DNA of 64,000 bases, taken from Symmachiella dynata. GTDB lineage: Bacteria; Planctomycetota; Planctomycetia; Planctomycetales; Planctomycetaceae. The stretch is taken from assembly GCF_007747995.1 (NCBI RefSeq), contig NZ_CP036276.1, positions 4,083,001 through 4,147,000 on the forward strand. Reading direction: 5' to 3'. The notes beneath the pieces were generated by a model. That model saw only the letters and a list, made by a program, of their open reading frames with translations, searched no databases and was not told where the DNA came from. Made by a program: the position numbers and the translations under genes. Positions 44,301 to 62,585 of this stretch are shown here, piece after piece (the first letter of the stretch is position 1; every line of letters starts with the position of its first letter).

Positions 44301-44642
44301 GTCTCGTCCACAGTTGTTTGAATTCAGCGACTACGACGACTGCCAAATGCCCCGCCTTGAGACATTCGCTGGTTTCGCCCCCCTCTTACACCCTTACCAC
44401 GGCGAGTCAGGGAACGGTGATATCGGGATGGCCCCACTCTCCACTGGGTCAACCGAGCCAGGGTAACCGTTGCGATATTACCGACCGACAGTCGGAATCA
44501 CAACTCGCGGAATCACCGGCACGGCGTGATCTCAGTTTCCAAACGTCCAGCGGGTGAAATTGGATCACGAATTGCCCCAGATCCACTTTAAGGGGCGCGT
44601 TTGGAAGACTTGGGGCAACAACAGACCCGGCATAGCCGCCGT
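44301..44642. other. Intergenic region with interleaved inverted repeats
   Basis: 342 bp without a gene between the FHA gene and the antiporter gene (both minus). Two inverted repeats are interleaved: TTCCAAACG at 44537-44545 with CGTTTGGAA at 44598-44606, and TTGCCCCA at 44572-44579 with TGGGGCAA at 44611-44618. This A-B-A'-B' order can form a pseudoknot-like RNA fold just downstream of the FHA stop. No T-run follows. Confidence 0.5.
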
Positions 44643-46109
44643 TTATAAGTCGTTCAACTGCCCAATGCCAACCGCGTCGTGCGTGACCTTTGATTGATCC
44701 GTTCCAGTCGTACCTGGTGGGAGTGGTGTACGGCGTACGTATACGCCGATCACTTTTCCATCCTTGGCCAATACCGGACTGCCGAACCACTCGAATCCAG
44801 AAAAATCACCTTCACACTTGAGCACCAGTCGCTCGACAGGTGCCGAAGCAGCTTGGGGCAACAGCACAAGAATACGGCCTGCACTTTGACTCGGAACCGG
44901 TGGTTCCTCTGGGTCCCACATAAAATCTGCTGTTTTCACAGGACACCCTTGTAGCACAATCTTCGAACTGGTGCTGGGGCGATCGCCAGTCTCAACCAGG
45001 CTCAGATAACTCTCCAAGTCGTCGGTGACTTCGATCGCGCCAATGTCAAAATAAAAGCCTTCTTCCGAGATCTGAAATGCCTTTTCCTCCAAAGGCTTCA
45101 TTTGTTCATCAATGGTGTTGCGCTCCGATGCGTCAGCCGCTTGTTCCTTTTTCTCGTCCAACGCCTCAAGTTGGGGGATGAGTTGCCCCAACTGCGTCAT
45201 AGCGTTTGCGAATTCGGGATGCACCTTCGTCTTGTCAAAGTCGATCAAGATCTCACGTTTGGTCATCGGTGAAATCAGAAGTGCCGTCATCTCAGATTCG
45301 GGCGTGCAGAGTTTCCGTGCCGCTTCAATCGCGCTGGCCGTGGTGGCAAGCCGATGCGGAGAAATTGCAAACGCAGTCCCCAGTTGATTCATCTGTCCCC
45401 CAGGCGACTTAATCACAATCGCATACAACGCCTGGGTTGCTGGCGGTGGTGCTGGAGTTTTCGGAAGAGGAGAAGGCGAATTTTCTGGCCCGGGCTTGTC
45501 AATTGGCTCGCGGTCTGGTTCAGCAACCACCGGCGGCAGCGGTTCCTCAGCCGTCTTGTCAGGTGTTTCTGAAATCATAACACGTTCATCACCGCCACCG
45601 GAATTCCCACTGAGCAGAGTGAACGCAACGACGAGCACTACTGCCAATCCTCCCACGCCCCAAACGGCGAGTTGCTTCGGCGAAAATGCGCGGTTCTCAT
45701 CGGCAGCCTGCGAAGCTCCCGTAGTCTCGGGGGAAATGGGAGTGTCTGCCGTTACGGCATTGTCATGCGCAGCATCAGTCGCAGCGACTGGAACGGCAGA
45801 AGCCAACGGGGGGGCTGCGGGTTGCGCAGGTTCAAAAACGAGTTTGGGACCCGTTTCGGTGAGGCCAATCGACTCGCCCGGTTGCAACCAGTGCACCCTG
45901 GCCGGCGCCGCATTTCCGGCGGTGAGCAAATGATCCCCTTGGCTTTCAATCATCCAGCGTCCCGCAACACGTTTGATTGTAGCGTGCTGACCGCACAGTC
46001 GTTCGTCGTCGGGAAAAGCGATTGCACAAAAGCGGTCGCGACCGATCACAGCCGACGTGCCTTCGATTTCGATGATTGCCCCCGCCTCGGTCGCTACTCG
46101 AAATGCCAT
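44643..46109 (-). CDS. FHA-domain membrane protein with degenerate trypsin-like domain
   Basis: 488 residues. Residues 1-95 are an FHA domain (SAVIGRDRFCAIAFPDDERL, CGQHATIKRV), which binds phospho-threonine. A linker and one TM helix (147-167, LAVWGVGGLAVVLVVAFTLL) follow, then a Pro-rich stretch and a trypsin-fold domain (~228-480). The fold is recognisable from GTAFAIS (244-250), DIGAIEV (355-361) and GSPVLAKDGKVIGVYV (443-458), but the catalytic His position is Ser259 (LATTAS) and the catalytic Ser is Phe442 (EWFGSPV), so proteolysis should be lost. A helical insert (~300-345) sits inside. It is the third gene after the Hsp70-like gene and may relay kinase signals across the membrane. Confidence 0.8.
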   Translation of the reverse strand: MAFRVATEAGAIIEIEGTSAVIGRDRFCAIAFPDDERLCGQHATIKRVAGRWMIESQGDHLLTAGNAAPARVHWLQPGESIGLTETGPKLVFEPAQPAAPPLASAVPVAATDAAHDNAVTADTPISPETTGASQAADENRAFSPKQLAVWGVGGLAVVLVVAFTLLSGNSGGGDERVMISETPDKTAEEPLPPVVAEPDREPIDKPGPENSPSPLPKTPAPPPATQALYAIVIKSPGGQMNQLGTAFAISPHRLATTASAIEAARKLCTPESEMTALLISPMTKREILIDFDKTKVHPEFANAMTQLGQLIPQLEALDEKKEQAADASERNTIDEQMKPLEEKAFQISEEGFYFDIGAIEVTDDLESYLSLVETGDRPSTSSKIVLQGCPVKTADFMWDPEEPPVPSQSAGRILVLLPQAASAPVERLVLKCEGDFSGFEWFGSPVLAKDGKVIGVYVRRTPLPPGTTGTDQSKVTHDAVGIGQLNDL

Positions 46110-46195
46110 AGGTTTCCAACTCGATTGAAGCGTTTGGTTGGCGGCACCAGCCGCTGGGTGTAGATTCTTCGATTCTCAGTGCGGAGAGAAACCGA

Positions 46196-47326
46196 TTATT
46201 GAGTGACGGAATCGTCGTCCTCGACAGTTCGATAAAGGTCACGCATGATGAAAAATGTTTCGCGATAGGCGGATTCATCACCGTTGAGCGCCGGTGCAAA
46301 TTCTAATCCGTGCCGCGACATGTGCGTGACCAACGCAAGCAGGTTATCGCCCTGGAATTGCGCGGAGTCTTCGAGGACCACCGTACTACCTAACTCTTGC
46401 AAGCGCGCCATTTCGCCAGCCAGGCTTTCCAAGAAACGTCGAGAGGCCAAAAACCGGAAAAAATTCCGGCCGCCTGATTCCGTGCGCCGCTCCTGGGTGT
46501 AATATTCGATGAACGTAGTAAACAGCCGATCGTGGGCTTCCATGAGCACCTTCATCCGGTCGTTGACAGCTTTTTTGTCGCTCGGCGAGGTTTGAGCCAG
46601 TTCAGCCCGGGCTTTCTCAAAGTCATTGCGCTGCGATTCGAAACGATCATCCTGTAAGGCAAGCGGCCACTTTTCGATGTTGAGCGATTCTTTGGAGTTC
46701 ACACGAAACACACGTTGTTTGCCACCAGAGAGATCTTCACGCACGCGGAGTTTGGATAGCGTTTCCGGCGAGAGCTGCAGTTGCGCACTTAGCCCTGGGT
46801 CCGCATTGGTTAACCCGTACTGCGTCGCTAAAATTGGCCCCGACAAACGATGCAATAAAAAGTTCAGCGCGACACCGTTATTGATCTCATTGTCGTTCAG
46901 TTCCGGAAAGTCCTTCAAGCGGCGCCACGTTTTAGCATTCCGCTGTTCAGCGGCATCTAAAGGTGCCGTGTACAGCCGCAATTTTTGGGCGCGATAAATC
47001 TCTTTCTTCTCCCAGTAGGCCTTCGCGTATTCGACGGAGTTAGCGATTTCCTTGCTATAGGCTTCAGCGCGCCGATTCCGCGCATCGGCCTGCAAGACAG
47101 CATTATCACCGATGCTGCGAACCAAGTCCGCCTGAGCGCGAATCCGATTTGAAATGGCGTCGGCCGGACCGTAATAGTGTCGCCATCCCCAAGCGGAACG
47201 AAAACCAGGATACCGGCGTCCGGCTGGTTCGATTTGGGAATAAGCCGGGGCAGCGGCACTCAATACCGCAACACTTGCCAATAGCAGGCAGCGAAGACCG
47301 CGGCTGAACTGTTTGCATCGTTTCAT
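46196..47326 (-). CDS. Exported hypothetical protein
   Basis: 376 residues with a clear signal peptide (CLLLASVAVLSAAAPAYS). No known family recognised. The mature chain is largely helical and charged: an N-terminal tyrosine/tryptophan-rich segment (YPGFRSAWGWRHYYGPADA), helices rich in R, E and A (ARNRRAEAYSKEIANSVEYA), and a coiled-coil-like middle (LQDDRFESQRNDFEKARAEL). Its ATG overlaps the Hsp70-like stop by 4 nt (47323-47326) and the FHA gene follows after 86 nt, so the three probably act together, possibly with this one as the periplasmic member. Confidence 0.8.
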   Translation of the reverse strand: MKRCKQFSRGLRCLLLASVAVLSAAAPAYSQIEPAGRRYPGFRSAWGWRHYYGPADAISNRIRAQADLVRSIGDNAVLQADARNRRAEAYSKEIANSVEYAKAYWEKKEIYRAQKLRLYTAPLDAAEQRNAKTWRRLKDFPELNDNEINNGVALNFLLHRLSGPILATQYGLTNADPGLSAQLQLSPETLSKLRVREDLSGGKQRVFRVNSKESLNIEKWPLALQDDRFESQRNDFEKARAELAQTSPSDKKAVNDRMKVLMEAHDRLFTTFIEYYTQERRTESGGRNFFRFLASRRFLESLAGEMARLQELGSTVVLEDSAQFQGDNLLALVTHMSRHGLEFAPALNGDESAYRETFFIMRDLYRTVEDDDSVTQ

Positions 47327-48912
47327 GACGTTTCCCCGTTTGGTCCACGATTAGTTTGGTTTTGAAATCCGAGCGGCCCAGCTGTGTTGGAAAGTCTTTC
47401 GTGCCACTGGCGAAACGTGGCTTCGGTCAAGCCGGAATCGCGTTTGATGGTCATCGCGACTTCGCGATCGATCAACGGCACACGTGCCCGCACCTTTAGG
47501 CGACCGTTGGCAGCGTACTGAAAGATCACCTCGACCGTTGTCCCCGCGGGTAGATCGTCGGGTAAATTGTCAATCAGGCATTGTCCGATAGGCGTTGCGT
47601 TGTTACCACTCGAATCGCCCCCTTCAATCACCTTGACGGCAATATTCTTTTGTGCCGATTTGGAGGTACGAAAACGCTTTCCCTTGGTGACGGGCAGCAC
47701 TGTGTTTTGTGTGATAATCACCGAGTTGCGGGGCCGACGGGTTTCGGGGTCTTGGGCCAACACTCCCAGGCTGTGTGAATTGACGTTCTTAATTTGCATC
47801 GAAGGTGGTTCGCCGTCACGGACAGCCAACAATAAACCCGCATAGATTGCCGCCCCTTGAGCAACCGCCTCGTCTTCCGATGCTGAATGCACTGAGTTGA
47901 GACCGGACGCTTGCTCCACCGCGCGGCGAATCATCGGCATGCGGCTCGAGCCTCCCACGAGCAATAGCCGCGTGACATCGCCCCACCCGACGCCGGCATC
48001 TTTGAGAACCTTTCGCATGGTGAACAGCGTGCGTTCGACTAAATCGGCCGTTAAGCTTTCAAATTCCTCACGCGTAATCGTAACGCGAATCCCTTCACCA
48101 GCATGCTCGAAACTAATCGTCGCTTGGTCACGCGCCGTTAATGTTCGTTTCGCATCTTCGGCTTCGCGGAGCAGCTTCTGCATACCGGAAGGATTTTGTC
48201 GTGGGTCGAGGCCACGATATTTTTCTTGGTACTTCTCGGCAATGAAGTCCACAAGACGCCGGTCCCAATCCAGTCCGCCCAGATACACGTCCCCTGCCGT
48301 TGCTACCGTGTTGTAGTTCTTGCCATCGATCTCCATCAGCGTGACGTCGAACGTGCCTCCTCCCAGATCGTAGACCAACACACGTTCCATTTTCCGCGCA
48401 GCCCCGGCATCATCCAGAAATCCCTGTTGATAGCCATAGGCAATGGCTGCGGCGGTTGGCTCGTTGATTACGTCCAGCACATTCAGCCCCGCCAATCGTC
48501 CGGCATCTTGCGTGGCTTTGCGGCGCGGCTCATTGAAAAAGGCAGGGACGGTGACCACCACGTCTTTGATCGGCCCCAGTGTCTTTTCCGTATCATTCTT
48601 AAGCTTTTCAAGAATGAGCGATTGAATCACTTCGGGCGGAACCTGCTCTCCCAAGATCGGGCGCGAGAAGTGCGGGCTGCCGATGTCGCGTTTGACGTAG
48701 TCGGCGATCCGGTCCGGTTCCATGGCAGCCGCTTTGACTGCTTCTTTGCCGACAATCACCGAGGACTCGTCAAATAACACCACGCTGGGAGTAACCCGAT
48801 CCCCTTCGCTATTGACGATCATGCAGGGGCGGCGCGACGCGTCAAGATACGCCACCGCTGAAAAGGTGGTGCCGAGATCAATCCCGACGGCGATTTGGTT
48901 GGTATTCGACAT
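47323..48912 (-). CDS. Hsp70/DnaK-like ATPase, short form
   Basis: 529 residues from the ATG at 48912 (MSNTNQIAVGIDLGTTFSAV); a longer frame to 49044 is not in the family pattern. The nucleotide-binding domain is complete: GIDLGTTFSAVAYL, VPAFFNEPRRKATQDAGRLAG, NEPTAAAIAYGY, VYDLGGGTFDVTLMEIDG and LLVGGSSRMPMIRRAVEQAS. The substrate-binding beta domain is present (NSHSLGVLAQDPETRRPRN, FQYAANGRLKVRARV), but the C-terminal helical lid is mostly missing, compared with ~620-640 residues for housekeeping DnaK. No DnaJ or GrpE gene is nearby, so it is more likely a specialised Hsp70 than the general chaperone. It leads a three-gene overlapping operon. Confidence 0.9.
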   Translation of the reverse strand: MSNTNQIAVGIDLGTTFSAVAYLDASRRPCMIVNSEGDRVTPSVVLFDESSVIVGKEAVKAAAMEPDRIADYVKRDIGSPHFSRPILGEQVPPEVIQSLILEKLKNDTEKTLGPIKDVVVTVPAFFNEPRRKATQDAGRLAGLNVLDVINEPTAAAIAYGYQQGFLDDAGAARKMERVLVYDLGGGTFDVTLMEIDGKNYNTVATAGDVYLGGLDWDRRLVDFIAEKYQEKYRGLDPRQNPSGMQKLLREAEDAKRTLTARDQATISFEHAGEGIRVTITREEFESLTADLVERTLFTMRKVLKDAGVGWGDVTRLLLVGGSSRMPMIRRAVEQASGLNSVHSASEDEAVAQGAAIYAGLLLAVRDGEPPSMQIKNVNSHSLGVLAQDPETRRPRNSVIITQNTVLPVTKGKRFRTSKSAQKNIAVKVIEGGDSSGNNATPIGQCLIDNLPDDLPAGTTVEVIFQYAANGRLKVRARVPLIDREVAMTIKRDSGLTEATFRQWHERLSNTAGPLGFQNQTNRGPNGETS

Positions 48913-49236
48913 CCAGGCGGCTTTGTTGGCGTTTTTTATCAATGGTTCGCAAACGAGCATTATGCCACGTTTTCCTTGAAATAGCATAAAACGAACGGAT
49001 GTGGATGGCAATTCGATTTGTATGGAACGGTCCAAGAATGCCAAAGTCCTAAGACAATCACTCCGACCACCTAGTACGATATCCGAAACCAGAACCGTAA
49101 CCCGACAAGAAATCCATGCTTTTTTGTTGGATGTTCTCGCGCAGACGCATTATCGTAGCTTTTGTGTAGACGTTGGGTGTTTGGGCGGCAGGCCCCCACT
49201 CTTTCCTGGCAAGCGGCCCCTCGTTGAAATGAATTC
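48913..49236. other. Divergent promoter region of the Hsp70-like operon and the sigma factor
   Basis: 324 bp with no gene. A short ATCCA/TGGAT inverted repeat with an 11-nt T-rich loop lies near 49109-49129. No sigma-54 motif or heat-shock CIRCE-type repeat was found. Co-regulation of the two sides is possible. Confidence 0.4.
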
Positions 49237-49842
49237 ATGGAAGACCCCGTTGACGGCTCTATCACACACGTTTTCGGCCAGATGCGCCGCGGCAACCCAA
49301 ATGCGGCTGGCAAACTGTTGAATCAGTTTTTTCCACGTCTCGTAGGGCTGGCACGCAAAACTTTGGACGGCAATCCGCGTCAAGTGGCTGATGAGCAGGA
49401 TGCTGCGCAAAGTGCCTTTGCCAGTTTTTGGCAGCGGGCCGAACGGGGGGATTTTGGCGGCGATCTGGACCGCAATGAAATCTGGAAACTGCTCTCAACC
49501 ATCACCGTTCGGAAGGCGCTGAAGCAAATCGAACGGGAAAAGGCCCAAAAACGGGGCGGCGGCCGCGTACACGCCGAATCCTCCTTGGCAGCCATGGCCC
49601 ACGCCCAAGGGGGGACTTTTGGTCTGGACCAACAGTTCGGAGCGGTGCCGTCTGAGGAGTTCGACCTCATTTGTGAAGAACTGTTGATGCAACTGGACGA
49701 TGAGCCGCGTGCCTTCGCGCTCATGCGTCTGATGGGCTACAAAAACCGCGAAATCGCCAAAATCCACGATTGCACCGAGCGAAAAGTCGAACGGAAATTG
49801 CAACTCATACGATTAATTTGGCAAAATGAGACAGCGGACTGA
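49237..49842 (+). CDS. ECF-family RNA polymerase sigma factor (planctomycete type)
   Basis: 201 residues of the ECF group typical of planctomycetes (PF07638 type). Region 2 is DEQDAAQSAFASFWQRAER (about 49-67), and region 4 carries the helix-turn-helix ALMRLMGYKNREIAKIHDCT followed by ERKVERKLQLIRLIW. A basic spacer (QKRGGGRVHAESSLAAMAHA) joins them. No dedicated anti-sigma gene is next to it; the next gene, 191 bp on, is a giant Ser/Thr kinase, a common arrangement in planctomycetes where the kinase may take that role. Confidence 0.92.
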   Translation: MEDPVDGSITHVFGQMRRGNPNAAGKLLNQFFPRLVGLARKTLDGNPRQVADEQDAAQSAFASFWQRAERGDFGGDLDRNEIWKLLSTITVRKALKQIEREKAQKRGGGRVHAESSLAAMAHAQGGTFGLDQQFGAVPSEEFDLICEELLMQLDDEPRAFALMRLMGYKNREIAKIHDCTERKVERKLQLIRLIWQNETAD

Positions 49843-50033
49843 ATGGCAATACAGTCTTAATGCTGTCTCGAAATTCGAAGACCGACGAGTTTTTTTAAGA
49901 ATCCTGTTTTTTTGTGTCGGATTTCAGATGGCGTTGGGAATGTACTAATGGGGAACGCAGGCAACGCCTCGACATCGAAATCGTGTTGCGACGCACTCCT
50001 TGGAAGATATCTGTTTGGAAATGAGGCCGGACG

Positions 50034-53000
50034 ATGACAGGCGATGCCATCCCACTTTCGGTAGTGCAGCAGATCGACACTGCTTGTGACAAATTTGAAA
50101 GTGAGTGGAAATCCGGAAAACACCCACGGATCGAAGATTATCTGGACCATGCCGAAGCACCACACGCGCGGGAATTTCTGAAGTCATTGCTGCAAGTCGA
50201 ATTGGAACTATTGCGGCGGGACGGACAACCCATTTCCGCCGAATCATTCGTCGCTCGCTTTTCTGAATATGCGGACCTCATCTCCGATGTCATGGATTCG
50301 GTTCAGGCCTCTTCTCCCAAAGATTTTGGAGAAAACGTCACCCGGAAAGCTCCCACAGTGAGTCTGCGGGATGCTTCGATTGACACATCGCGAGTGGGAA
50401 AAACCACTGTCGCCAGAAATCGAAAATCGACACCGGAGTCCATCGGCCGTTTTGAAATCATGGAAGTGCTCGGCGAAGGAGCATTCGGTACGGTCTATCG
50501 CGCGACTGATCCGCAACTGCATCGTGAAGTTGCCTTAAAAGTCCCTCGCGCCGGCGTCCTGGAGACGCAAGAGGACGTCGACCGGTTCCTACAAGAGGCC
50601 CGCGCAGCTGCGACGTTGCGACAACCGCACATCTGTCCCATCTATGATTTCGGGAAAATCGGCGATCACTATTTCATCGTTATGGCCTATATCAAAGGCC
50701 AACCGCTCTCAGAAGTACTGGCAAAATCGAAGAAGATCTCGCCTCGAAAAATCGCCGCCGCCGTCCGTAAAATTGCGCTCGCTTTAGGCGAAGCCCACAA
50801 AAATCACGTCGTGCATCGCGATTTAAAACCCTCGAACATCATGATCGACAAACGGGGCGAGCCGGTTGTGATGGATTTCGGGTTGGCACGAAAGGTCTCC
50901 GGCGACGAAGCGCAATTGACGCACAGTGGGGCCATCCTGGGAACGCCCGCTTATATGCCGCCCGAACAAGCCCGCGGTCAGTCCAAAGAAGTGGGACCAA
51001 CGTCCGACGTTTATAGTCTGGGGGTGATTCTCTATGAGCTGTTGTGCGGCCAGCGCCCCTTTCGCGGCGCCGTGGCAGAAGTGTTGGCAGCAATTCTTTA
51101 CAAAGAGCCGCCACCTCCCTCGTCGCACAAACCGGATGTCGATCCCCAACTCGAAGCGATCTGCCTGAAGGCGATGGCCAAGAAACCGGAGGAACGGTAT
51201 TCCTCGATGGAGGGTTTGGCCGAGTCGCTGACTGAATATTTGCGGGCAAAACGCGACAGCAGTTCGGGAGCACCAAGCGATTCGCAGGAAATGGGTGCCT
51301 TTGCGTCCATGGCCGATAGCGGACCGGTTCCGGTGCCGAAGAAATCCCGACCAAAGCGAAAAGCCAAACGCACCAAGCGCGCTGCCGGTGAATTTGATCC
51401 TTATCACAAATGGCTGGGCATTTCTCCCGAGGAACAACCCGCCAATCATTATCGCTTACTGGGCCTCAAACCGTTTGAAGATGACGCCGACGTCATCGAT
51501 GCAGCCGCCGAACGGCAAATGAGCTACCTACACCAAATCGCCGCCGGCCCGCACTTGGCGGACTCGCAACGGTTACTGAACGAGTTGGCTACTGCGCGGT
51601 TGTGTCTACTGAACGAGGAAAAGAAGACCGCCTATGATGCGCAGTTGAGGGACGAACTTGTCACTGCCGAAAGTTCCGTGGAACAGATTGCCGTGGCCGT
51701 CGAGGTCGACGATGACTTTGACGAGTTCGCGACACTCCCCCAGCGGTCCCAATCATCGAGTGATGAACCGCCATGGTGGAAAACGCTGGACCGCAGGATT
51801 GTGGCTGCGGGCGGAGTCGTGTTTTTCGTTTTGCTGGGGATTGTGATTTTTTGGCGTTCGGGAGGCGTAACGTATCGCGTCGAATTGAGTGACGAGCTTT
51901 TGGCGGATGGAGCGGTCACCCTCAAGACCGATGGAGAAGAATATGAAATCGGCCTCGATGGGCTCGGCATCACCTTGAAACCGGGTACGTACAACTATGA
52001 AGTGCGGCGCGGCGAAGAAATCATCCGGGGCAACGGCGAATTTACCGTGGTGCGAGGTGGTGAGAATCTGTTGACAATCACGCGGGAGAAGCAAGGACCT
52101 GAAACGCCCCTCGAACCCCTCACCTCCGGGGAACGGGAATGGTCTGAGCCGGTAGAAATCCACCGCCTCAAAGTAATCGGCCAAAACACAGACACCTACG
52201 CCCTGACCTTCACCCCGGACGGCAAGAAACTCATCACGGGCAACCAAGACCAGCAACTTCGCATTTGGGACGTTGAGAGTGGACAACTCATCTCATCAAT
52301 TAAGACGCCCAGGGCTGGTCGCGCCTTGGCCGTCTCACCGGATAGCCGTTATGTCGCCTATTGTGGCGTGGCGGCGAAAGCCTGGATTTGGGACCTCAAC
52401 AATGGTTCAAAGGTCCTTCAACTCAAGAGCAATTTTGGAAATCCCGGTATGCTGATGGGAATCGATTACTCCCCCGATGGAAAGTGGATTGCCGCGAGTT
52501 GTTTGGACGGATTCGGGAGGATTTGGGAAACCACAACCGGCCAAGAACTACACAAGTTTCCCATCAAAGCGCCCAAGAACGGTGGTTGCTCCATCTACTT
52601 CACGCCAGATGGGAACAGACTTTTGGTCAAGGGCAGCCATTCTCGCGTGCAGGTTTTTGACGCACACTCCGGGACATTGAAAACTGAGTACGATCTTGGT
52701 CCGGACTCAGCAGGCGGCCCCGACATGGCGATCTCCCCCGACGGCCGACAATTCGTCACTTGCACCTTTCATGCTCAAGCCTATGTCTACGATCTGGATA
52801 CCGGTCAGAAATTGGGCGAATGCGAAAAAGGTCATTCGGACGTGTCGCAGGTAGCGTATTCTGCCGATGGGCGTTGGATTGCTGCAGGGCACCACCATGG
52901 AAGCATTCAATTGCTCGACGCAGCAACTCGAACACAAAAATTCGTGCTCCATCACGAGCGAGCGCACGTAGCCGGGTTGGCGTCTTCGCCCGACGGACGC

Positions 53001-56000
53001 CATCTCGCTGCGGCCACCATGCGCTTTGACAAAGATCACTTCACCGGAGGCGACATCCGCATTTGGCGAATGCCCGATGCCGCGCCGTTGGCGCAGGCGG
53101 ACGATGGCCCCGAAGGCAAGAAGGCAGAGGGCCGTCTCACGCATATTACAAGTCCCCCAAAGAACAACAGCCTATCGACAAAGTCGGGCCATTATATTGC
53201 CGCACGGGGCGGCCTACCACAGGATGCCGGCTGGACTTTCCAACAGGACAATCTGGGAGGAACTGCGCAAGTGCAATCCAACAGGTTGGTCCATGACGCC
53301 ACGGGTAAAGGTAGCAGTTTCTGGACAGCAGCGCGGCCGGTATCGGAGAGTGCAACACCTGGCGTCTATATGGAAACGTCCGCTAAGATTATCGAAGAAA
53401 GCCACACATCGACCTCCGCCGGCGTCACGCTACTGGATATTTCTCGACCAGTGACCGGCGGAATCTTGGCCGCCTCGTTGTTGGCCCAGGATAATATGTT
53501 GTTGCTTCGGGACAGTCATCATAACATTTTGAAGACAGTCTCCATGAAGACGACGGACCGCGTCCACACCTATCGCCTCGAACTTGCCGACGACACATTC
53601 TGGCTGTTCATCGACGGGGAGCTGAAAGAGTTCGCATCAGCTCCGCAATTGGTGCGCCCCATTCAAGGGATGAACGGGATTTCGCAAATCACAGCAAGAT
53701 TCGGAGACACCTTCGCAGCAACTTCGAGTTCTCGGGTGGAATATCAACAAGTCTCCTTTGGCGAACTGGCAGACGAGGGCGGACCGACTGTGCTTCGGGA
53801 GATCAATAAATTTGAGAACCCGCGCTATCCGGCAAACATGAATCCGCTAGTCACCGTCTATGACGCCGGTCAAAACGAATTACCGAAGTCAGCGGGTTGG
53901 AATTACAGCAGCGAAGCGGGCGCAGCTGAAGCGGAGATTCGTGACGGAATTCTAATCCATGATTCGTCCAAAACCACACGGAGCTTCTGGACCACATCGC
54001 TGCCCGCCGGGAGCGCTCCGACGGGCGCTGGGGTATTCATGGAACGAACCCTCAAGGTCAATGATGAACAACATACCAATCCCCGCCGTGGCATCAACGT
54101 GGTGGAAATCAATGAAGTCACTCCCCAATCTGTTGGAGGGGCGACGGTCTATGCTTGGCAGGACCGCGTATTTGTGATGGATCATGACGATCGAACTGTC
54201 ATCAGTGACATCAAATTCGACACGACGGACGGATTTCACACCTATCGTCTAGAAGTACTCCGCGATCGGTTTTGGTTGTACATCGACGAACAATTGAAAA
54301 TTGAGGGGACCGGACTGCTCACCCCGACGCCGAAAAACGGGGAAAGCCCGATCCCCACTGAGGACCTGGCTGTGCCGAGGTTGGTCGGAAAGTTCGGAAA
54401 CGGCAGCTCAAGTTCGCAATCTGTGACCGAAACCAAATCGATCGTATTCGGTTCGCTGGCCGCATTGGGCGGCCCCACCGCAATGCGCAAACCGACCGAC
54501 TACGACGATTTATTGACCGGCTATTGGCAACAGATTCCGTTCCCTACGACCGGTGGCGAGTTAACGAAGCCCGACGGCGTTCCTACGTTTCGCCCCCAAG
54601 GTAATGTGCTCCTCGGCAGTCGGCCCTATCGTGATGTGATCATCCGTGCTGAGATCAAGAAAATTGGTGGATGGCATCCTACGATGTCTTTGCGGTCGAA
54701 CCTAAAAGGGGTCTACACCGCGTATTTAGACAAATTCAAACGCTTTGGCCTGGGTAAAAACGTTTCAGGAGAGCGTTGGAAAGATCTGAAAGTCCAATTC
54801 ACTAAACAAGACCATCGCGACTATTTTCAATGGACACTCGCAGCCATTGGTGACCGCTTATTGGTCTATGTCGATGGTGAAAATATCATCGATCACCGCG
54901 ATTCTATTCATGCGGTTGGATTTCCTCAAATCGGGGAAACGAAGTCTATGGCCGGCTTTCGTAACCTGCAGATCATGGATCTGACAAACGGGCCTTCCCG
55001 CCCACATGGAGCCATCAAGCAAACCGTCACAGCGCATGTGACAACGCCAATCGGTCAACCGACTGACGCGGACGAGTCGCAATTTCAACCGCTGTTCAAT
55101 GGCAAAAACCTAGATGGATGGGTGGGAGATGAGTCGGCCTTCGCGGTGCAAAATGGGAATCTGGTCAGTCTCCCCAATAAGAAAGGCAACTTGTACACAG
55201 CGAGCGAATACACCGACTTTACTTTGAGGTTTGAATTTCAACTCACAGCGGGAGCCAACAATGGCATTGGCTTACGAACGCCCTTGACCGGAAATCCAGC
55301 CTATGATGGTTTTGAAGTCCAGATTCTCGACAATTCGGCAAAACGCTTCCAACAGATTACAGCCGAAAGTCGCCACGGCTCCCTGTATGGCGTTGCAGCG
55401 GCCAAATCGGGGCATTTAAAGCCTGTGGGTGAATGGAATACACAGGAAATCGTCTGCATCGGCAATCAGCTAAGAGTCAAACTGAATGGGGTCACGATCC
55501 TCGATACAAAACTCGACCAAACGGGAACCGTGATCACGCCCGACGGCAAGGCTCATCCGGGCCTTCAGCGACGAAGCGGGCACATCGCACTGATGGGTCA
55601 GAAATCGCGAGTCTTATTTCGCAATCTGCGGATTCACACAGGCCGGCAATTCGATTCAACCTCGACAAAAGAACACACCGCCCCCACATCCGAGTGGGAC
55701 GATTTATTCAACGGCAAAAACCTCGACGGCTGGACGCCCAGCAATACCAAACAGTGGAAGGTTCTAGCCGGGGCAATCCAAGGCGATGCGCCGGCGGGCG
55801 GGAAAAGTTGGTCCGCTCTCACGTCCGATCACGACTACGATGATTACGAATTCTCCTTCCAATACCGTTTGGCCAAGGGAAGCCGGGCACGGGTCCTCTT
55901 ACGTTCCAATCGTGGTCTGCCCGGCGATCCCCACGATGAAGGTGCTCAAATTCAATTGATTGACGACGACGCCCAGTTCTATTTCGGAAACAGAACGCGA

Positions 56001-57140
56001 CGGGTGCCCCCCCAACGAAAAAACGGGGCCCTCTTGACCATGACTCCGCCGGTACTTTCACCGGGGATGGCGATCTGGGATCGAAACGGCCTTCCGGCCG
56101 GGAAATGGAACGAGATGACCATCGCAGTCGAAGGGCTGCATGTGATCGTCACGCTCAACGGTAAACGAATCGTCAATAGGCAGATCGACCAGACGTCCAA
56201 GTACAAAAAATTCCAGAACAAACCGAAGTCCAGCCAATTTGATCGCCTGAATAAAACGTCCGGCGCGATCAGATTTTGTGTACTCGACAACACGATCGAA
56301 ATTCGCAAACTGCAAATCCGGGAACTCGGCCAAAAGACAGCAACCAATTCGAAACCAGCACAACCACAAACACAACCACTGCCAAGAGCCCTGTCCGCAC
56401 GAACCGCTGCACAGTGGGTTCTCGACAACGGTGGCGAGCTGCACGTTCGTGGCGAAGGGGGTTGGAACCAGAACCTCGATCACCCCACCAAACTTCCACA
56501 GCGTCCGTTTCGTGTCACAAACGTAAACTTGTCGAGCAATGGAATGTTTCAGCCCAACGACTTATTTCGCCTGGAGAAATTATCGGAGATTGTGCAATTG
56601 AATCTCAACGACGTTCAGCTGTCAGATAAAAGCATGCAAGTTTTGGCAAAGCTGCCTGATATACAACGTTTGTACCTGAGCCGGACAGGTCTTGGGGACG
56701 GTTGCTTCGAGGGCATTGCCACCCTTGCGAACTTGCATCAACTGCACCTCCCGACCACTAACATTACCGATGCTGGATTGGCGAAACTGACGCACCTCAA
56801 AAAGCTGCACCTTCTCTGGATTTGGGAGACGAAAACGACTGATGAAGGGCTAGGTCACATCAGCCGACTCACGGCGCTAGATGACCTGAATCTCGATGGC
56901 ACCAATATCAGCGACAACGGATTGGTGCACCTGACGAAATCAACCAAATTGAAGCACCTAAATATTGGCAGGACACGCGTCACCGACGACGGCTTGAAAC
57001 ACCTCTACTCTTTAAAAACGCTCCGCACGTTGAACTTGAAGGATACCGCTGTCACGGCCAACGGCATCGCCGCACTGCAAGCCGCACTCCCCGCCTGCAC
57101 GATCAAAGGGGTGTTTGTCGGTGGCAACCAAGCGAATTAA
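50034..57140 (+). CDS. Giant Ser/Thr kinase with WD40, LamG-like, DUF1080 and LRR domains
   Basis: 2,368 residues. Residues ~139-405 are an active-looking kinase: GEGAFG (147-152), Lys169, HRDLKPSN (261-268), DFG (281-283), PPEQAR (309-314). Residues ~452-536 hold a planctomycete domain that resembles a degenerate J domain without HPD (PANHYRLLGLKPFEDDADVI). One TM helix follows (~586-609). Outside are a PEGA-like segment, a WD40 propeller (~715-1010), three concanavalin-like segments (~1060, ~1282 and ~1499; the first two are clear duplicates), two DUF1080 domains (from ~1683 and ~1887, FNGKNLDGW in each) and about seven leucine-rich repeats (~2155-2355). It probably senses extracellular glycan or protein and signals inward. 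It follows the ECF sigma gene. Confidence 0.92.
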   Translation: MTGDAIPLSVVQQIDTACDKFESEWKSGKHPRIEDYLDHAEAPHAREFLKSLLQVELELLRRDGQPISAESFVARFSEYADLISDVMDSVQASSPKDFGENVTRKAPTVSLRDASIDTSRVGKTTVARNRKSTPESIGRFEIMEVLGEGAFGTVYRATDPQLHREVALKVPRAGVLETQEDVDRFLQEARAAATLRQPHICPIYDFGKIGDHYFIVMAYIKGQPLSEVLAKSKKISPRKIAAAVRKIALALGEAHKNHVVHRDLKPSNIMIDKRGEPVVMDFGLARKVSGDEAQLTHSGAILGTPAYMPPEQARGQSKEVGPTSDVYSLGVILYELLCGQRPFRGAVAEVLAAILYKEPPPPSSHKPDVDPQLEAICLKAMAKKPEERYSSMEGLAESLTEYLRAKRDSSSGAPSDSQEMGAFASMADSGPVPVPKKSRPKRKAKRTKRAAGEFDPYHKWLGISPEEQPANHYRLLGLKPFEDDADVIDAAAERQMSYLHQIAAGPHLADSQRLLNELATARLCLLNEEKKTAYDAQLRDELVTAESSVEQIAVAVEVDDDFDEFATLPQRSQSSSDEPPWWKTLDRRIVAAGGVVFFVLLGIVIFWRSGGVTYRVELSDELLADGAVTLKTDGEEYEIGLDGLGITLKPGTYNYEVRRGEEIIRGNGEFTVVRGGENLLTITREKQGPETPLEPLTSGEREWSEPVEIHRLKVIGQNTDTYALTFTPDGKKLITGNQDQQLRIWDVESGQLISSIKTPRAGRALAVSPDSRYVAYCGVAAKAWIWDLNNGSKVLQLKSNFGNPGMLMGIDYSPDGKWIAASCLDGFGRIWETTTGQELHKFPIKAPKNGGCSIYFTPDGNRLLVKGSHSRVQVFDAHSGTLKTEYDLGPDSAGGPDMAISPDGRQFVTCTFHAQAYVYDLDTGQKLGECEKGHSDVSQVAYSADGRWIAAGHHHGSIQLLDAATRTQKFVLHHERAHVAGLASSPDGRHLAAATMRFDKDHFTGGDIRIWRMPDAAPLAQADDGPEGKKAEGRLTHITSPPKNNSLSTKSGHYIAARGGLPQDAGWTFQQDNLGGTAQVQSNRLVHDATGKGSSFWTAARPVSESATPGVYMETSAKIIEESHTSTSAGVTLLDISRPVTGGILAASLLAQDNMLLLRDSHHNILKTVSMKTTDRVHTYRLELADDTFWLFIDGELKEFASAPQLVRPIQGMNGISQITARFGDTFAATSSSRVEYQQVSFGELADEGGPTVLREINKFENPRYPANMNPLVTVYDAGQNELPKSAGWNYSSEAGAAEAEIRDGILIHDSSKTTRSFWTTSLPAGSAPTGAGVFMERTLKVNDEQHTNPRRGINVVEINEVTPQSVGGATVYAWQDRVFVMDHDDRTVISDIKFDTTDGFHTYRLEVLRDRFWLYIDEQLKIEGTGLLTPTPKNGESPIPTEDLAVPRLVGKFGNGSSSSQSVTETKSIVFGSLAALGGPTAMRKPTDYDDLLTGYWQQIPFPTTGGELTKPDGVPTFRPQGNVLLGSRPYRDVIIRAEIKKIGGWHPTMSLRSNLKGVYTAYLDKFKRFGLGKNVSGERWKDLKVQFTKQDHRDYFQWTLAAIGDRLLVYVDGENIIDHRDSIHAVGFPQIGETKSMAGFRNLQIMDLTNGPSRPHGAIKQTVTAHVTTPIGQPTDADESQFQPLFNGKNLDGWVGDESAFAVQNGNLVSLPNKKGNLYTASEYTDFTLRFEFQLTAGANNGIGLRTPLTGNPAYDGFEVQILDNSAKRFQQITAESRHGSLYGVAAAKSGHLKPVGEWNTQEIVCIGNQLRVKLNGVTILDTKLDQTGTVITPDGKAHPGLQRRSGHIALMGQKSRVLFRNLRIHTGRQFDSTSTKEHTAPTSEWDDLFNGKNLDGWTPSNTKQWKVLAGAIQGDAPAGGKSWSALTSDHDYDDYEFSFQYRLAKGSRARVLLRSNRGLPGDPHDEGAQIQLIDDDAQFYFGNRTRRVPPQRKNGALLTMTPPVLSPGMAIWDRNGLPAGKWNEMTIAVEGLHVIVTLNGKRIVNRQIDQTSKYKKFQNKPKSSQFDRLNKTSGAIRFCVLDNTIEIRKLQIRELGQKTATNSKPAQPQTQPLPRALSARTAAQWVLDNGGELHVRGEGGWNQNLDHPTKLPQRPFRVTNVNLSSNGMFQPNDLFRLEKLSEIVQLNLNDVQLSDKSMQVLAKLPDIQRLYLSRTGLGDGCFEGIATLANLHQLHLPTTNITDAGLAKLTHLKKLHLLWIWETKTTDEGLGHISRLTALDDLNLDGTNISDNGLVHLTKSTKLKHLNIGRTRVTDDGLKHLYSLKTLRTLNLKDTAVTANGIAALQAALPACTIKGVFVGGNQAN

Positions 57141-57185
57141 GGGACAGACTTCCCTGCCCTTCATCTGCCACGAGGATTGTGAAGA

Positions 57186-57344
57186 ATGTTAAAAATCTGT
57201 TGTCCTAGCTGCGGAGTGAAATTAAAAATCCGCCCGCGGATGCTCAATCGCAAAGGCAAATGCCCGCGATGCGAGCAACGACTGCGCATCGAGCCACAAA
57301 ATTATGTCGTGCACGCCGTGCTACGTGCGAACCCCAAATCCTAA
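57186..57344 (+). CDS. Small zinc-ribbon protein, 52 residues
   Basis: An ATG at 57186, 45 nt after the kinase stop and preceded by a GAGGATTGTGAAG stretch, opens a frame to TAA at 57342-57344. The product starts MLKICCPSCGVKLKI and contains CPSC and CPRCEQRLRI, two CxxC pairs forming a zinc ribbon of the zinc-finger/rubredoxin knuckle type common at the start of planctomycete kinases and sensors. The chain ends after a short tail (VVHAVLRANPKS). Its position right behind the kinase suggests co-expression. Confidence 0.7.
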   Translation: MLKICCPSCGVKLKIRPRMLNRKGKCPRCEQRLRIEPQNYVVHAVLRANPKS

Positions 57345-57551
57345 TCGATACTGACCGATTTCAGCTAGAACTCGCCTCCTCAGCGCTTTGGTGTTTCCCG
57401 AACGCTCGAAATTTCTCCAGACCATTCTCCTCGTATTAAAAACCCGATGTTGTCTATTCCGTTTACCGTTGTTTGCCGGTGAGATCCTTGTCATACTTCC
57501 CGCAAGTTTGCGTTTGGATCTACCGTTTGAACAACAAAGGATAGGCGGGCC

Positions 57552-58550
57552 ATGACTGTTTTGGTGACGGGCGGCGCAGGGTATATCGGATCACATGCGG
57601 TCCGGAAGTTGATTCACAATGACCATCGCGTCGTCGTCGTCGACAATCTATTCCGCGGCCACCGTGCCGCTGTCCATCCCGACGCAACATTTGTGGAACT
57701 CGATCTCGCGGCAACCGACGAGTTATCCCGGATCATGCGCAAGAATGAAGTGACGGCGGTTTTGCACTTCGCGGCCTTGGCCTATGTCGGCGAATCGGTT
57801 ACCTCTCCGCTGCAATACTATCGCAACAACACCGCCGGGACGTTGAGTCTGTTAGAAGCCATGCAGGCGGCCGACGTGCACCGTTTGATCTTCAGTTCGA
57901 CCTGCGCGACGTACGGCGTGCCGGAACAGTTACCACTGAACGAGTCGACACGGCAGGTCCCCATCAATCCCTACGGTTGGTCAAAACTGTTTGTTGAGCA
58001 GATTCTCAAAGACAAGGCAGCCGCTGACCCCAAATTTGCGTGCATCGGTTTGCGGTACTTCAATGTCGCCGGTTGCGCCGATGATGGGAGTCTCGGCGAA
58101 GACCACACTCCGGAAACGCACCTGATTCCGCTCTTGCTGCAGACAGCATTGGGGCAGCGTGAATCAATCACGGTCTTTGGGAACGATTACCCCACGCCGG
58201 ACGGAACCTGCATTCGCGACTATGTGCATGTCGATGACCTCGCCGACGCGCATCTGCTGGCACTGGAGCACCTGCAACCAGGATGTGCCGAATTTCTCAA
58301 TGTGGGAATTGGCCGCGGCCATTCGGTGCGCGAGACAATTGACGCTGTGATCCGTGTCACCGGCCGCGAGGTACCGCTTGAGTACGGTGCCCGTCGTCCG
58401 GGTGATCCGCCGGAACTGTGGGCCAACGGTGATCGCATTCGTCAAGAATTCGGCTGGGAACCGAAATTTGCCAATCTGGAGGACAACGTGGCAACGGCGT
58501 GGGAATGGTTTCGAAGCCACCCTCACGGTTACGAAAAAACGGCAACTTGA
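57552..58550 (+). CDS. galE: UDP-glucose 4-epimerase
   Basis: 332 residues, extended SDR family. The NAD-binding motif GGAGYIGSH is at the N-terminus, the catalytic S and Y-x3-K are in SSTCATYGVP and NPYGWSKLF, and HFAALAYVGES is the usual GalE loop. The C-terminal half carries the substrate-binding DYPTPDGTCIRDYVHVDDLA. It interconverts UDP-glucose and UDP-galactose for exopolysaccharide or glycoprotein synthesis. A good AGGCGGG precedes the ATG. It converges on the large surface-protein gene. Confidence 0.95.
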   Translation: MTVLVTGGAGYIGSHAVRKLIHNDHRVVVVDNLFRGHRAAVHPDATFVELDLAATDELSRIMRKNEVTAVLHFAALAYVGESVTSPLQYYRNNTAGTLSLLEAMQAADVHRLIFSSTCATYGVPEQLPLNESTRQVPINPYGWSKLFVEQILKDKAAADPKFACIGLRYFNVAGCADDGSLGEDHTPETHLIPLLLQTALGQRESITVFGNDYPTPDGTCIRDYVHVDDLADAHLLALEHLQPGCAEFLNVGIGRGHSVRETIDAVIRVTGREVPLEYGARRPGDPPELWANGDRIRQEFGWEPKFANLEDNVATAWEWFRSHPHGYEKTAT

Positions 58551-58586
58551 TTCGCCGGCCAGCCAGTCTCTTGGTCGCCCCTTTGA

Positions 58587-61500
58587 TTAGCGGGAGCGGG
58601 CCAAGAGAGTGAACAGATCGTCGTCGTCATCCAACAGACGGAACTGGCCGAAAACAAAGTCGTCTCCCAAACCGGAGTCGATAAAGCTGCTGCCGAAAGC
58701 CACGATGAAATCGTTCCCGGCGAAGGTGTAGATGGTATTGAACCCGCCGTCGTCGCGAATACTATCGTCGTGCGCACCGCCGAGGATTGTGTCGTTGCCG
58801 ATACCGGTGCGGACCACGTTGCTGCCGTCTCCAACATCAATATGGTTGTGGCCCCCTAGGTCGTTGACGTGATCCTGGCCCGAGCCGGTGATGATCACAT
58901 CGTTCCCCTTGCGGACATTGATGTCGTTGTTTCCATCGCCGGCATCGATCATGTTGTTGCCGCCAAAGTCAGTGATCTTGTCATCGCCGTTACCCGACTT
59001 GACGTAATCGTCGCCGATATTGGTTTTGATTACGTTGTTGCCGTCGCCCACCGAGACGTAATTGTCCCCGCCGTAGTCGTAAACGCGATCTCGGCCGTCA
59101 CGCCCCAGGATCGTATCGTTGCCGTAGTAGGTATAGGAAACATTATTGCCGCGCCCCCCATCGAAGTAGACATCATAGTCTCCATGGTCACCGCGGAACC
59201 AATCGTCGCCCCCCATGCCCATGGCATAGATCGTACCAGGCACGGTATGCACGCCCAACGAAATCCGGTTATGGAATATTTCCACGCGATCGGTGCCGGC
59301 AAGTGTCACCACGCGGAATTCGTCGCGGGCGTTTGTGCCGGAAATGGCAAAGTCATCCCCTTGCCGTTGCGACGTCCCGATGCGAATGCGGCGTGAATAA
59401 GATGTATTCAAGCCGGTCTCGTTGCTCACCGCCGTGGCACTGATGGTGTAGGTCCCAGGTTTGTTGTAGATTTTGCTGATCGACAACCCAGAGATGCCTG
59501 TAACAACCCGCGGCTTGCTGCCATCGCCCCAATCGACGGTATAAGTGTATTGGCTGTCCGTCACGGTTCTGCCGTAAAGTTTGAGCGAAACGACTCGTCG
59601 CTGCCCGACCACCCCATCGTAATCGCCGCGAATCCGCAGCACCGCAGTGTCCTCGCCAAACACGCGTACAAGGTTGGATCGCTTGGCGCCTTCATCATCG
59701 ACCACCGTCAATCGCACGACGATATTGCTTTTTCCGTTTAAGTCGGCAGCAGTGATGTAGGGTCGTACCCCCTCGGCATCGAAGGTCCCATCGTTGCCGT
59801 AATCCCACAGATAGGTCAGCGTATTCGCAGGTTGATCGACATCGTAGCTGCCGCTGCCATCCAGCCGGATCCGATCACGATTGCCCAACACATAAGGCCC
59901 CCCGGCATCGGCAACAGGGCGGGTGTTGACGAAGGGAATGACGATAATCACCAAGCTGACAGTGGCATCAGGAGTCGTACCGACAGTCACATCGTCTACG
60001 GTGACCGTCACGTTCAAAACCGGATTCGAGTCGCTATCGAGAACCGCGCCGGCTTTCAGAAATAATTCGGCGCCAATGATCTCAAATAGATTCGCGTCCG
60101 CTCCGGTGAGCGCGAGTTCGTTGTCACCCAACGTATCATCGGTGACCACAATGTCCGCCACTTTAATGCGGAACGTCGTGTCGATTTTCTCCGGTAGACT
60201 GTCGACCGTGTTATCTAACGTGACCAGCGGCGGATCGTTCACGTCGACGATAAAAATGGAAAGCGGCACACTGTCGTCGGGCGTGCTCCCTACCGACGCG
60301 TCATCAACGTTGACGACAACGTTTAAAATGGGATTGCTGTCGTGATTTAAGATCGTGCCGGCCTTGAGGAACAGTTCATCACCAATGATCTCGAAGAGAT
60401 TCGCGTCCGCTCCTGTCAGATAAAGAACATTCACGCCCAGCCCGTCGTCGCTGACGGCGATGTCAGCGACTTTGAGGCGGAACGTCGTATCGGTATTTTC
60501 CAGGAGAGTCGTGACCGCATTGCCCAATCCGACAATCGGCGGGTTATTGACTTCAGCCAGTTGAATGGCCAAAGCTGCGGTATCGTCCGGCGTGGCTCCG
60601 ACAGTGTCATCATCGACATTAACAACGACATCCAAAACAGGATTCGAGCCGATATCAAGAACCGTGCCAGCTTTCAGGAATAGCTCATCGCCGTCGATCT
60701 CAAACAGGTCCGCGTCCGCTCCAGTCAGCGAAAGCACGTTCGTTCCCAACGGGTCATCGGTCACGACAATATCGGCCACTTTAACGCGAGACGTTGTATC
60801 GGTGTTCTCTGGCAGGATCGTGACCGTGTTTTCCAAGGCGACCATCGGCGGGTCGTTGACATCGTCGTTGACGGTAATCACCATCGCCGCACTGTCATCG
60901 GGCGTGCTGCCTACCGTGCCATCGTCGACATTGACCGCGACGTTCAGAACCGGGTTGGTGCCGCTATCAAGAACCGTGCCGGCCTTCAGGAACAATTCAT
61001 CGCCGATGATCTCGAAAAGATCTGCATCCGCTCCGGTGAGCGTCAACTCGTTGGTTCCCTCTGCATCGTCGGTAATTACGATGTCGGCCACTTTCACGCG
61101 GGAGGTGGTATCGGTCCCGTCGAACAAATCAGTGACCCTGTTCTCCAACTCGACCATCGGCGGCGCGTTGTAGAACATCGAATACCCGACAATCGGATCG
61201 GCCGTATCAGACGCCCACTCTCCGTTAGGATTCTGCGGAGTCCCATTGGCCAACTCGCCGCTCGCTTCCAAAGAAAACGAGAGATTAAGAATGCTGTCCG
61301 CGCTAATAATCGGATTGCCATCTGGATCGACCAAAAAGCCCTTGAGCGGGACCTTCATCTCCAATTCATGCCCATCCGCCGAACGCATTTGGGTGATGAT
61401 GCTTTCATAAACCGGCCCTTTGTCTTGAACGAGGATGATCTGATCTTTGACGCCTCCTCCTTCCAGCGGGACTTCTTGATAAACCCATTGCGTATAATGC

Positions 61501-62219: not shown

Positions 62220-62287
62220 TTCCCAATCCCTCTTGGAGACGCCTTAGCGTGTTGCAGATTCCGGTGCTTGGTTTACGTTTCTCAAAT

Positions 62288-62299
62288 GTTTGCGCAAAC
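62288..62299. promoter_or_regulatory. 12-bp palindrome, possible operator
   Basis: GTTTGCGCAAAC is fully self-complementary. Its location 69 bp before the start of the large surface-protein gene is right for a repressor or activator site. The regulator is not identified. Confidence 0.35.
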
Positions 62300-62513
62300 T
62301 GCGCACAACAATCAGCAAATCAAATGACGTGGGAACGATTAATAGTCGCCCACGGAAAGCCAGCGCATCTTACCAATGCTACCGGACCGTTACCCCCGAT
62401 TCAATCGATTTGTTTGCGATTGAAGCCTTTTCTGACCGCCTGACGCGCTGCAGACACCTGACGCGAGACGCCTCGGACCGGCTCATTCATCCGCATCGGG
62501 GCCGCAAACCGAT

Positions 62514-62549
62514 CTAAAGCGTAGCCAACAGCGCGCAATCCCGCTTTAG
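62514..62549 (-). terminator. Stem-loop after the flavoprotein gene
   Basis: An 8-bp stem (CTAAAGCG with CGCTTTAG) and 20-nt loop begin 37 nt downstream of the flavoprotein stop, in the right place for a terminator. The U-tract of a classic intrinsic terminator is missing. Confidence 0.35.
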
Positions 62550-62585
62550 GAAGAATGCGCTGCCAACGCTGTGCCCTGTCCCCGA

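Follow-up and report, generated by a model that had tools for sequence, protein, structure and literature searches.

The kinase locus and its neighbouring genes

The 64,000-nucleotide stretch of DNA analysed here (the window) is part of a planctomycete genome of 7.77 Mb assembled as a single contig, and encodes a receptor-type Ser/Thr kinase of 2,368 aa. The kinase gene is preceded on the same strand by a gene for an ECF sigma factor, with the genes for an Hsp70, a 376-aa protein and an FHA-like protein on the opposite strand (positions are those of the window):

44643..46109, minus strand: FHA-like membrane-spanning protein (PF00498, E 0.0022, 18.8 bits against a cut-off of 20.7; span recognised by eye)
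46196..47326, minus strand: 376-aa protein of no assigned family, adjoining the Hsp70 gene in three same-genus genomes (signal peptide recognised by eye)
47323..49044, minus strand: Hsp70, divergent (PF00012, 6.7e-116)
49237..49842, plus strand: ECF sigma factor, 191 bp upstream of the kinase gene (PF07638, 1.2e-26), conserved in the same-genus genomes G001 and G002
50034..57140, plus strand: receptor-type Ser/Thr kinase, whole coding sequence, a single unbroken frame from ATG
50451..51221, plus strand: Hanks-type kinase domain, residues 140-396 (PF00069, 2.1e-49)
51390..51656, plus strand: J-like domain without HPD, residues 453-541, on the cytoplasmic side adjoining the membrane (family profile, model and Foldseek)
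51798..51854, plus strand: single transmembrane helix, residues 589-607 (hydropathy scan alone)
52109..53209, plus strand: exchange cassette with WD40 repeats, 1,101 bp or 367 codons (junctions from blastn; a 705-bp LamG block takes its place in G001)
53190..53804, plus strand: concanavalin-like unit 1, about residues 1053-1257, limits approximate (choice_anch_Y, E 0.02; model and Foldseek)
53850..54482, plus strand: concanavalin-like unit 2, about residues 1273-1483, limits approximate (choice_anch_Y, E 7e-4; model and Foldseek)
54498..54998, plus strand: third, weak DUF1080-like unit, about residues 1489-1655 (PF06439, E 0.027, 14.9 bits against a cut-off of 26.8)
55083..55634, plus strand: DUF1080/3-keto-disaccharide hydrolase-family domain 1, residues 1684-1867 (PF06439, 4.6e-43)
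55692..56321, plus strand: DUF1080/3-keto-disaccharide hydrolase-family domain 2 (PF06439, 4.9e-27)
56571..57104, plus strand: leucine-rich repeats, about residues 2180-2357 (PF13516 and PF13855 above cut-off, other LRR families below)

The kinase domain carries the GEGAFG glycine loop, VALK, HRD and DFG motifs of Hanks-type Ser/Thr kinases; since catalytic residues are kept here and in the neighbouring Hsp70, both proteins are probably active. From the N to the C terminus the chain consists of kinase domain, J-like domain, transmembrane helix, WD40 repeats, two concanavalin-like units, the weak DUF1080-like unit, two DUF1080 domains and leucine-rich repeats. Given the one hydrophobic helix at residues 589-607, the kinase and J-like domains are placed in the cytoplasm and everything past residue ~608 in the periplasm, in agreement with the rule published for planctomycete kinases (PMC11032199). 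That the protein is a receptor-type kinase spanning the membrane once, with a modular ectodomain, is well supported. The sequence-only reading had listed WD40, duplicated concanavalin-like, two DUF1080 and LRR modules, and this composition mostly holds (by Pfam, and by model and Foldseek in case of the concanavalin-like units). Its modular binding part likewise stands, but not the extracellular location, as WD40 and DUF1080 of planctomycete kinases are placed in the periplasm (PMC11032199). A splitting of the frame by assembly or sequencing error, named there as a possible refutation, is unlikely because intact orthologues of 2,229 aa (G001) and 2,556 aa (G002) exist in two other, same-genus assemblies. 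The high modular complexity attributed to this bacterial kinase turned out to be ordinary in Planctomycetota, for which, together with outgroups, 307 kinase architectures are described and DUF1080 is reported as the most abundant exclusively periplasmic domain among single-spanning kinases (PMC11032199). Modular kinases being common in the phylum, the window kinase belongs to a known class. Identity as a defence system was rejected, since the PADLOC matches shown cover the kinase domain only. Shorter kinase paralogues are present in the window genome and in G002.

The gene order FHA-like protein/376-aa protein/Hsp70 divergent from ECF/kinase is kept in all three same-genus genomes, even though the identity of the cytoplasmic part of the kinase falls to 66 % among them. 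The longest open reading frame of the Hsp70 gene begins with TTG, and the conserved Hsp70 sequence (~529 aa) begins at Met45 (window position 48912), which is probably the true start. A match of the 376-aa protein to UBA_E1_SCCH (8.8e-5) was taken as spurious. With a spacing of 191 bp and an order kept in G001 and G002, sigma factor and kinase form an ECF-kinase pair, a neighbourhood that is an established pattern in several planctomycete groups (PMC8999054). The ECF43 factor that has been studied carries uncharged residues in place of DAED, and phosphorylation restores the charge (PMC8999054, PMC8103513). The window factor keeps an acidic DEQD in region 2.2 (DELD in G001; motif position judged by eye), so that, unlike in ECF43, the known phospho-activation switch is not indicated and an ECF43-type phosphorylation-activated factor was ruled out as class.

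Two further large proteins are encoded on the minus strand of the window. The 1,166-aa protein at 39169-42669 combines a BlaR1/MecR1-type sensor region (NF000326, 4e-25, below cut-off) with a stretch that matches propellers of the TolB type and looks WD40-like by eye, i.e., another membrane sensor with a propeller. The 1,210-aa protein at 58587-62219 consists of repeated units, cadherin-like and calcium-binding-like by eye, the internal repeats being visible as secondary blastn matches.

The J-like family and the Hsp70 genes beside it

Within J proteins, HPD is described as the best-conserved sequence and its interaction with Hsp70 as essential; whether J proteins without HPD are accidents or selected was called enigmatic in a 2026 review (PMC13254874). 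The sequence-only reading had pointed to a J-domain-like segment without HPD beside the kinase domain, which proved to be its most informative remark. As a single sequence this segment matches PF00226 only at an E value of 0.2. The profile of its family, searched against PDB sequences, finds J domains as best matches (CbpA and DnaJ, 6.9e-7), the model of the domain has a pLDDT of 94.9, and the top Foldseek matches of this model are J domains (TM by target up to 0.84, probability near 1.00, E values above 0.001). The segment is therefore real and shares both fold and sequence relation with J domains. At positions 33-35, where the canonical HPD sits, it carries HQI. A clear J fold with non-conservative replacement of HPD agrees with the definition of type IV (HPD-less) J proteins (PMC13254874).

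Across 176 distinct J modules of the family, the position of D35 is never occupied by D or E and is hydrophobic or aromatic in 151; together with HQI in the window this excludes membership among the canonical J-domain proteins of classes A-C. In helix II, 92 of the 176 carry E or D instead of R22, and Y, L and YD positions are near-invariant. The string HPD occurs in seven modules, six of them in genome G200. That this genome keeps HPD was rejected for its paired module L074, in which the residues in register are K-R-W with HPD downstream; the other five were judged from the alignment only. An eight-copy profile of the family matched 38 of 149 phylum genomes (the weakest rows, covering positions 18-84 only, are probably ordinary DnaJ) and a broader one, at E<=1e-6, had matches in 135 of the 198 genomes of the class (ordinary DnaJ may be among its rows near 1e-7). 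The titles of the 80 best named loci, out of 218 loci, point to planctomycetes with two exceptions, labelled 'Candidatus Peribacteraceae bacterium' and 'bacterium'. Besides the window, seven of 83 loci contain fusions of kinase and J module; four of these belong to the genus and three (L087, L089 and L091) to another family. A 708-aa J-like protein at L024 (3750-5876) bears a C-terminal NPCBM/NEW2 domain.

Linkage to Hsp70 genes was assessed in 40 loci, taken as every third not-yet-examined row (rows 1-118) of the class-wide J-profile table. An Hsp70 gene lies within 6 kb of the J module in 18 of them, and within 400 bp in 17 of these, and none lies within 6 kb in the other 22. The chance per locus, estimated from 1-7 Hsp70 genes per genome, is ~0.7 % and at most 3.2 %, corresponding to about 0.3 to 1.3 linked loci expected in 40. 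Binomial tails for 18 of 40 are 2e-28 and 7e-17 with the loci treated as independent, figures that overstate this independence given the relatedness of the J loci. The phylum set comprises 36 examined loci, of which 17 have Hsp70 near the J module, one of them fused (L097). Of the 80 named loci 21 are Hsp70-linked, with some overlap with the other sets and many short contigs. Kinase genes near J modules were left out as evidence because kinases are abundant in these genomes.

Several arrangements within these sets differ from the window. A single open frame of 959 aa at L097 (3-2879) joins a J-like module to a divergent Hsp70 match. At L071 (5487-8009), from a distant planctomycete, an 840-aa ORF matching Hsp70 and the kinase query is possibly an Hsp70-kinase fusion and is followed by a J-like protein. 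The 344-aa protein at L025 (5438-8290), with J-like and MshEN domains, directly adjoins an R167-less Hsp70, and similar J proteins of 340-400 aa recur beside Hsp70 across the family.

In DnaK, R167 and Q378 bind D35 of HPD (PMC8215388). In the alignment both residues are kept in E. coli DnaK, HscA and HscC, whereas the window Hsp70 has D at 167, Y at 378 and the linker MQIKNVNSHSLG, and has thus lost the hydrophobic linker. All 58 distinct J-linked Hsp70s aligned to E. coli DnaK lack R167 as well as Q378, and 57 of them keep the catalytic residues E171 and T199; two of 82 distinct Hsp70 sequences with a gap at scored positions were left out of the count, and the mutual relatedness of the J-linked proteins means that these counts are not independent. 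The conserved hydrophobic linker is altered in the lineage too. Both residues are kept in 22 of 22 unlinked Hsp70s of a first set, which is biased towards best-scoring, mostly DnaK-like proteins. An exact marking of J-linked Hsp70s by R167 loss (22/22 against 0/58) was undone by a second set of 20 further loci, in which 16 Hsp70s without a J module in the flanks examined (on some short contigs) have also lost R167 and Q378, and two more (L265, L269) have R167 but lack Q378. Therefore, the loss marks a clade and is by itself no proof of J partnership. Ten genomes of the family each contain a further R167-less Hsp70 without a J-like module in the flanks examined (L255-L264).

In the final FastTree phylogeny of Hsp70 nucleotide-binding domains (105 tips), R167 is present in none of 62 J-linked proteins (L178 gapped) as compared to 27 of 43 unlinked ones, the latter including the three E. 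coli proteins. The R167-less Hsp70s form one clade with a support of 0.925 in the absence and 0.53 in the presence of E. coli HscC and HscA; this clade is sister to, and not nested within, HscC and three planctomycete HscC-like proteins (joint support 1.0), which keep R167 and Q378. As judged from alignment and tree, a distinct Hsp70 lineage exists. HPD-less J modules adjoin only the R167-less lineage in this sample, never a canonical Hsp70.

Among 54 distinct linked pairs, residue 35 of the J module is hydrophobic or aromatic in 52, residue 378 of the Hsp70 is Y, F, W or H in all 54 and residue 167 is acidic in 44. Position 33 of the J module is basic in 30 of the 44 pairs with acidic 167 and in one of the ten others (one of the ten gapped). 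On the D167/H378 branch of Hsp70 the J side is mostly R-K-Y, possibly representing a charge swap. Since the pairwise pattern follows clades, it suggests, without proving, co-adaptation of J modules and Hsp70s. The J relatives beside altered Hsp70s suggest a so far unrecognised Hsp70 partnership tied to signalling.

Alternatively, the locus could represent an ordinary planctomycete receptor kinase with its ECF factor, the J-like domain being a structural leftover or adaptor and the Hsp70 an incidental neighbour. The absence of HPD, the frequency of modular kinases in the phylum (PMC11032199) and the genome itself, where three of five J modules, all in proteins other than the window kinase, have no Hsp70 in the flanks examined, would agree with this. 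Against these points stand the Hsp70 neighbours at 18 of the 40 loci in the systematic sample, mostly at <=400 bp, the order conserved in three genomes and the strongly conserved J fold with its near-invariant Y, L and YD. The alternative as a whole appears less likely than not.

HscC is a specialised Hsp70 of E. coli with the dedicated J proteins DjlB and DjlC. A membrane-tethered J protein with a dedicated Hsp70 of this kind, its ATPase being stimulated via other residues, is an unlikely explanation for the window pair. It would fit the sister position of HscC and the HscC-like proteins to the R167-less clade, the departure of DjlB and DjlC from HPD (HPE) and the stimulation of Hsc70 by a designed, HPD-free J analogue (cited in PMC13254874), but these HscC-type proteins have retained R167 and Q378, neither of which is present in the window Hsp70, where the hydrophobic linker is lost as well. 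HscC-type identity of the window Hsp70 was rejected on account of D167, Y378 and the missing hydrophobic-acidic linker.

Modules of the periplasmic part and their exchange

The periplasmic part begins with WD40 repeats at about residues 717-994 (Pfam). The following concanavalin-like duplicate gave no Pfam match above cut-off, the two matches to choice-of-anchor Y (listed above) lying far below it. An AlphaFold2 model of residues 1053-1680, calculated from three input sequences, has a low to moderate pLDDT of 66.8; Foldseek matches of the concanavalin pair are sialidase lectin domains, laminin LG domains and galectins, the best single-domain match being 2w68 (TM by target 0.65). Across proteins, the two units are 24-35 % identical to each other as opposed to 46-88 % for corresponding stretches, and on these identities the duplication predates the split of the genus. 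The weak third DUF1080-like unit, sub-threshold in Pfam, was absent from the sequence-only reading. The two further copies belong to PF06439 with 149.5 and 97 bits (cut-off 26.8; total E value 1.3e-71).

A putative receptor for complex glycans is a possible function of this ectodomain, and sensing of glycans or envelope components is a plausible proposal. DUF1080 is an enzyme family too. The periplasmic part might thus mainly be an enzyme scaffold, in which the DUF1080 domains would act as membrane-held 3-keto-glycoside hydrolases whose work the kinase controls or reports. Both copies score well above the cut-off, solved relatives of domain 1 (e.g., 4jqt) are named glycosyl hydrolase or 3-keto-disaccharide hydrolase, and the G002 orthologue contains an FGE-sulfatase-family domain (2.8e-39). 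The surrounding modules are, however, typical binding folds, rendering a predominantly enzymatic role improbable.

A 647-residue stretch of the ectodomain had no match in a contig-collection search, from which the own genus was possibly left out; it was matched in nine of 59 related genomes (own included), strongly in the own and two same-genus genomes only. Window and G001 are 88.2 % identical in DNA over 43286-52108 and 89.3 % over 53210-62692 (blastn). Between these flanks the 1,101-bp WD40 cassette of the window is replaced in G001 by the 705-bp block, which is LamG-like (PF13385, 4.3e-7). At the same point G002 has neither WD40 nor LamG, by reading of the sequence; further on its orthologue bears the sulfatase-family domain and near the end an extra copy resembling the third DUF1080-like unit, with no LRR match. 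No donor of the WD40 cassette was found, the best relatives, from three genomes, being ~25-35 % identical. Since the same-genus orthologue has a LamG block at this position, the receptor does not stably include the WD40 block, which is unlikely to have been a fixed part of its ancestor. Taken together with the differences in G002, the swap indicates that the ectodomain is, at sequence level, a set of exchangeable modules. An assembly artefact behind the difference between the window genome and G001 could be invoked because the G001 assembly is in six contigs and not closed, but is very improbable given that both blocks consist of whole codons and keep the frame, the flanks align over ~9 kb on either side and the base composition of the WD40 block is the same as that of its flanks. 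In-frame swapping of periplasmic sensor cassettes between sister species, with a signalling half 90 % identical, represents a natural experiment in receptor evolution.

Proposed mechanism and comparison with known systems

The preferred reading, with a probability of about 0.5, is that of a receptor kinase with the ECF sigma factor as output, in which the juxtamembrane J-like domain serves as docking site for the Hsp70 encoded nearby; docking, sensing and sigma activation are all deduced. Accordingly phrased as a model, the periplasmic residues ~608-2368 would form a chain of exchangeable ligand- or substrate-binding cassettes, and ligand binding or the state of the envelope outside would change kinase activity. 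The J-like domain between kinase and membrane would dock a dedicated, non-canonical Hsp70, encoded divergently beside the ECF gene, and this docking would gate or assemble the complex. Transcriptional output may then be provided by the co-encoded ECF factor, either directly or via a further protein such as the FHA-like one. In the window Hsp70 normal linker allostery is probably lost, hence its role may be that of a nucleotide-dependent clamp or scaffold rather than that of a chaperone for refolding. From gene linkage and residue changes we infer that the Hsp70 and the J-like domain bind each other physically, as a rewired pair held at a receptor kinase.

A wider reading is put forward tentatively and with more doubt than confidence: the J-Hsp70 contact may have been rebuilt in a whole Planctomycetota branch of Hsp70 (D35 to hydrophobic or aromatic; Q378 to Y, H, W or F; R167 mostly to D), with the window pair built into a receptor kinase in which Hsp70 would be a fixed subunit or gate and the sigma factor the output. 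The HPD-less J domain of Pam16 gives no Hsp70 stimulation (PMC12953747), which counts against the preferred reading. A large bacterial family with both sides of the HPD contact changed, phylum-wide and often side by side, would allow a direct test of the question of accident versus selection.

Planctomycete kinases with WD40, TPR, FGE-sulfatase or DUF1080 ectodomains (Odelgard et al. 2024, PMC11032199) share with the window kinase the cytoplasmic kinase domain, the one span and periplasmic repeats and DUF1080; the window kinase differs from those described there by several module types per chain and by its HPD-less J domain, and the words DnaJ, LRR, laminin and concanavalin are absent from the main text of that study. 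ECF-kinase pairs (ECF43 EcfP/PknT; planctomycete ECF59, 61, 62 and 217; PMC8999054, PMC8103513) have the adjoining ECF and kinase genes in common with the window, where in contrast to ECF43 the acidic DEQD of region 2.2 does not indicate the EcfP switch and the locus includes an Hsp70 gene. The E. coli system of HscC with DjlB/DjlC likewise comprises a specialised Hsp70, sister group in the tree, and J partners off HPD, but HscC keeps R167 and Q378, HPE is not a full loss and no kinase is involved. Pam16/Tim16 and other type IV J proteins also have a J fold without working HPD, Pam16 being located at the membrane beside an Hsp70 machine (PMC12953747); both the J protein and the Hsp70 with which Pam16 pairs are normal, whereas the Hsp70 neighbouring the window kinase is altered at the HPD contact. 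In the literature searched, which did not cover the 2020 survey of bacterial J proteins, there is no earlier description of an HPD-less J domain paired with an altered Hsp70. Thus, the window kinase belongs to a known class, and what is less ordinary about it is the exchange of WD40 and LamG cassettes and the HPD-less J domain beside an altered Hsp70.
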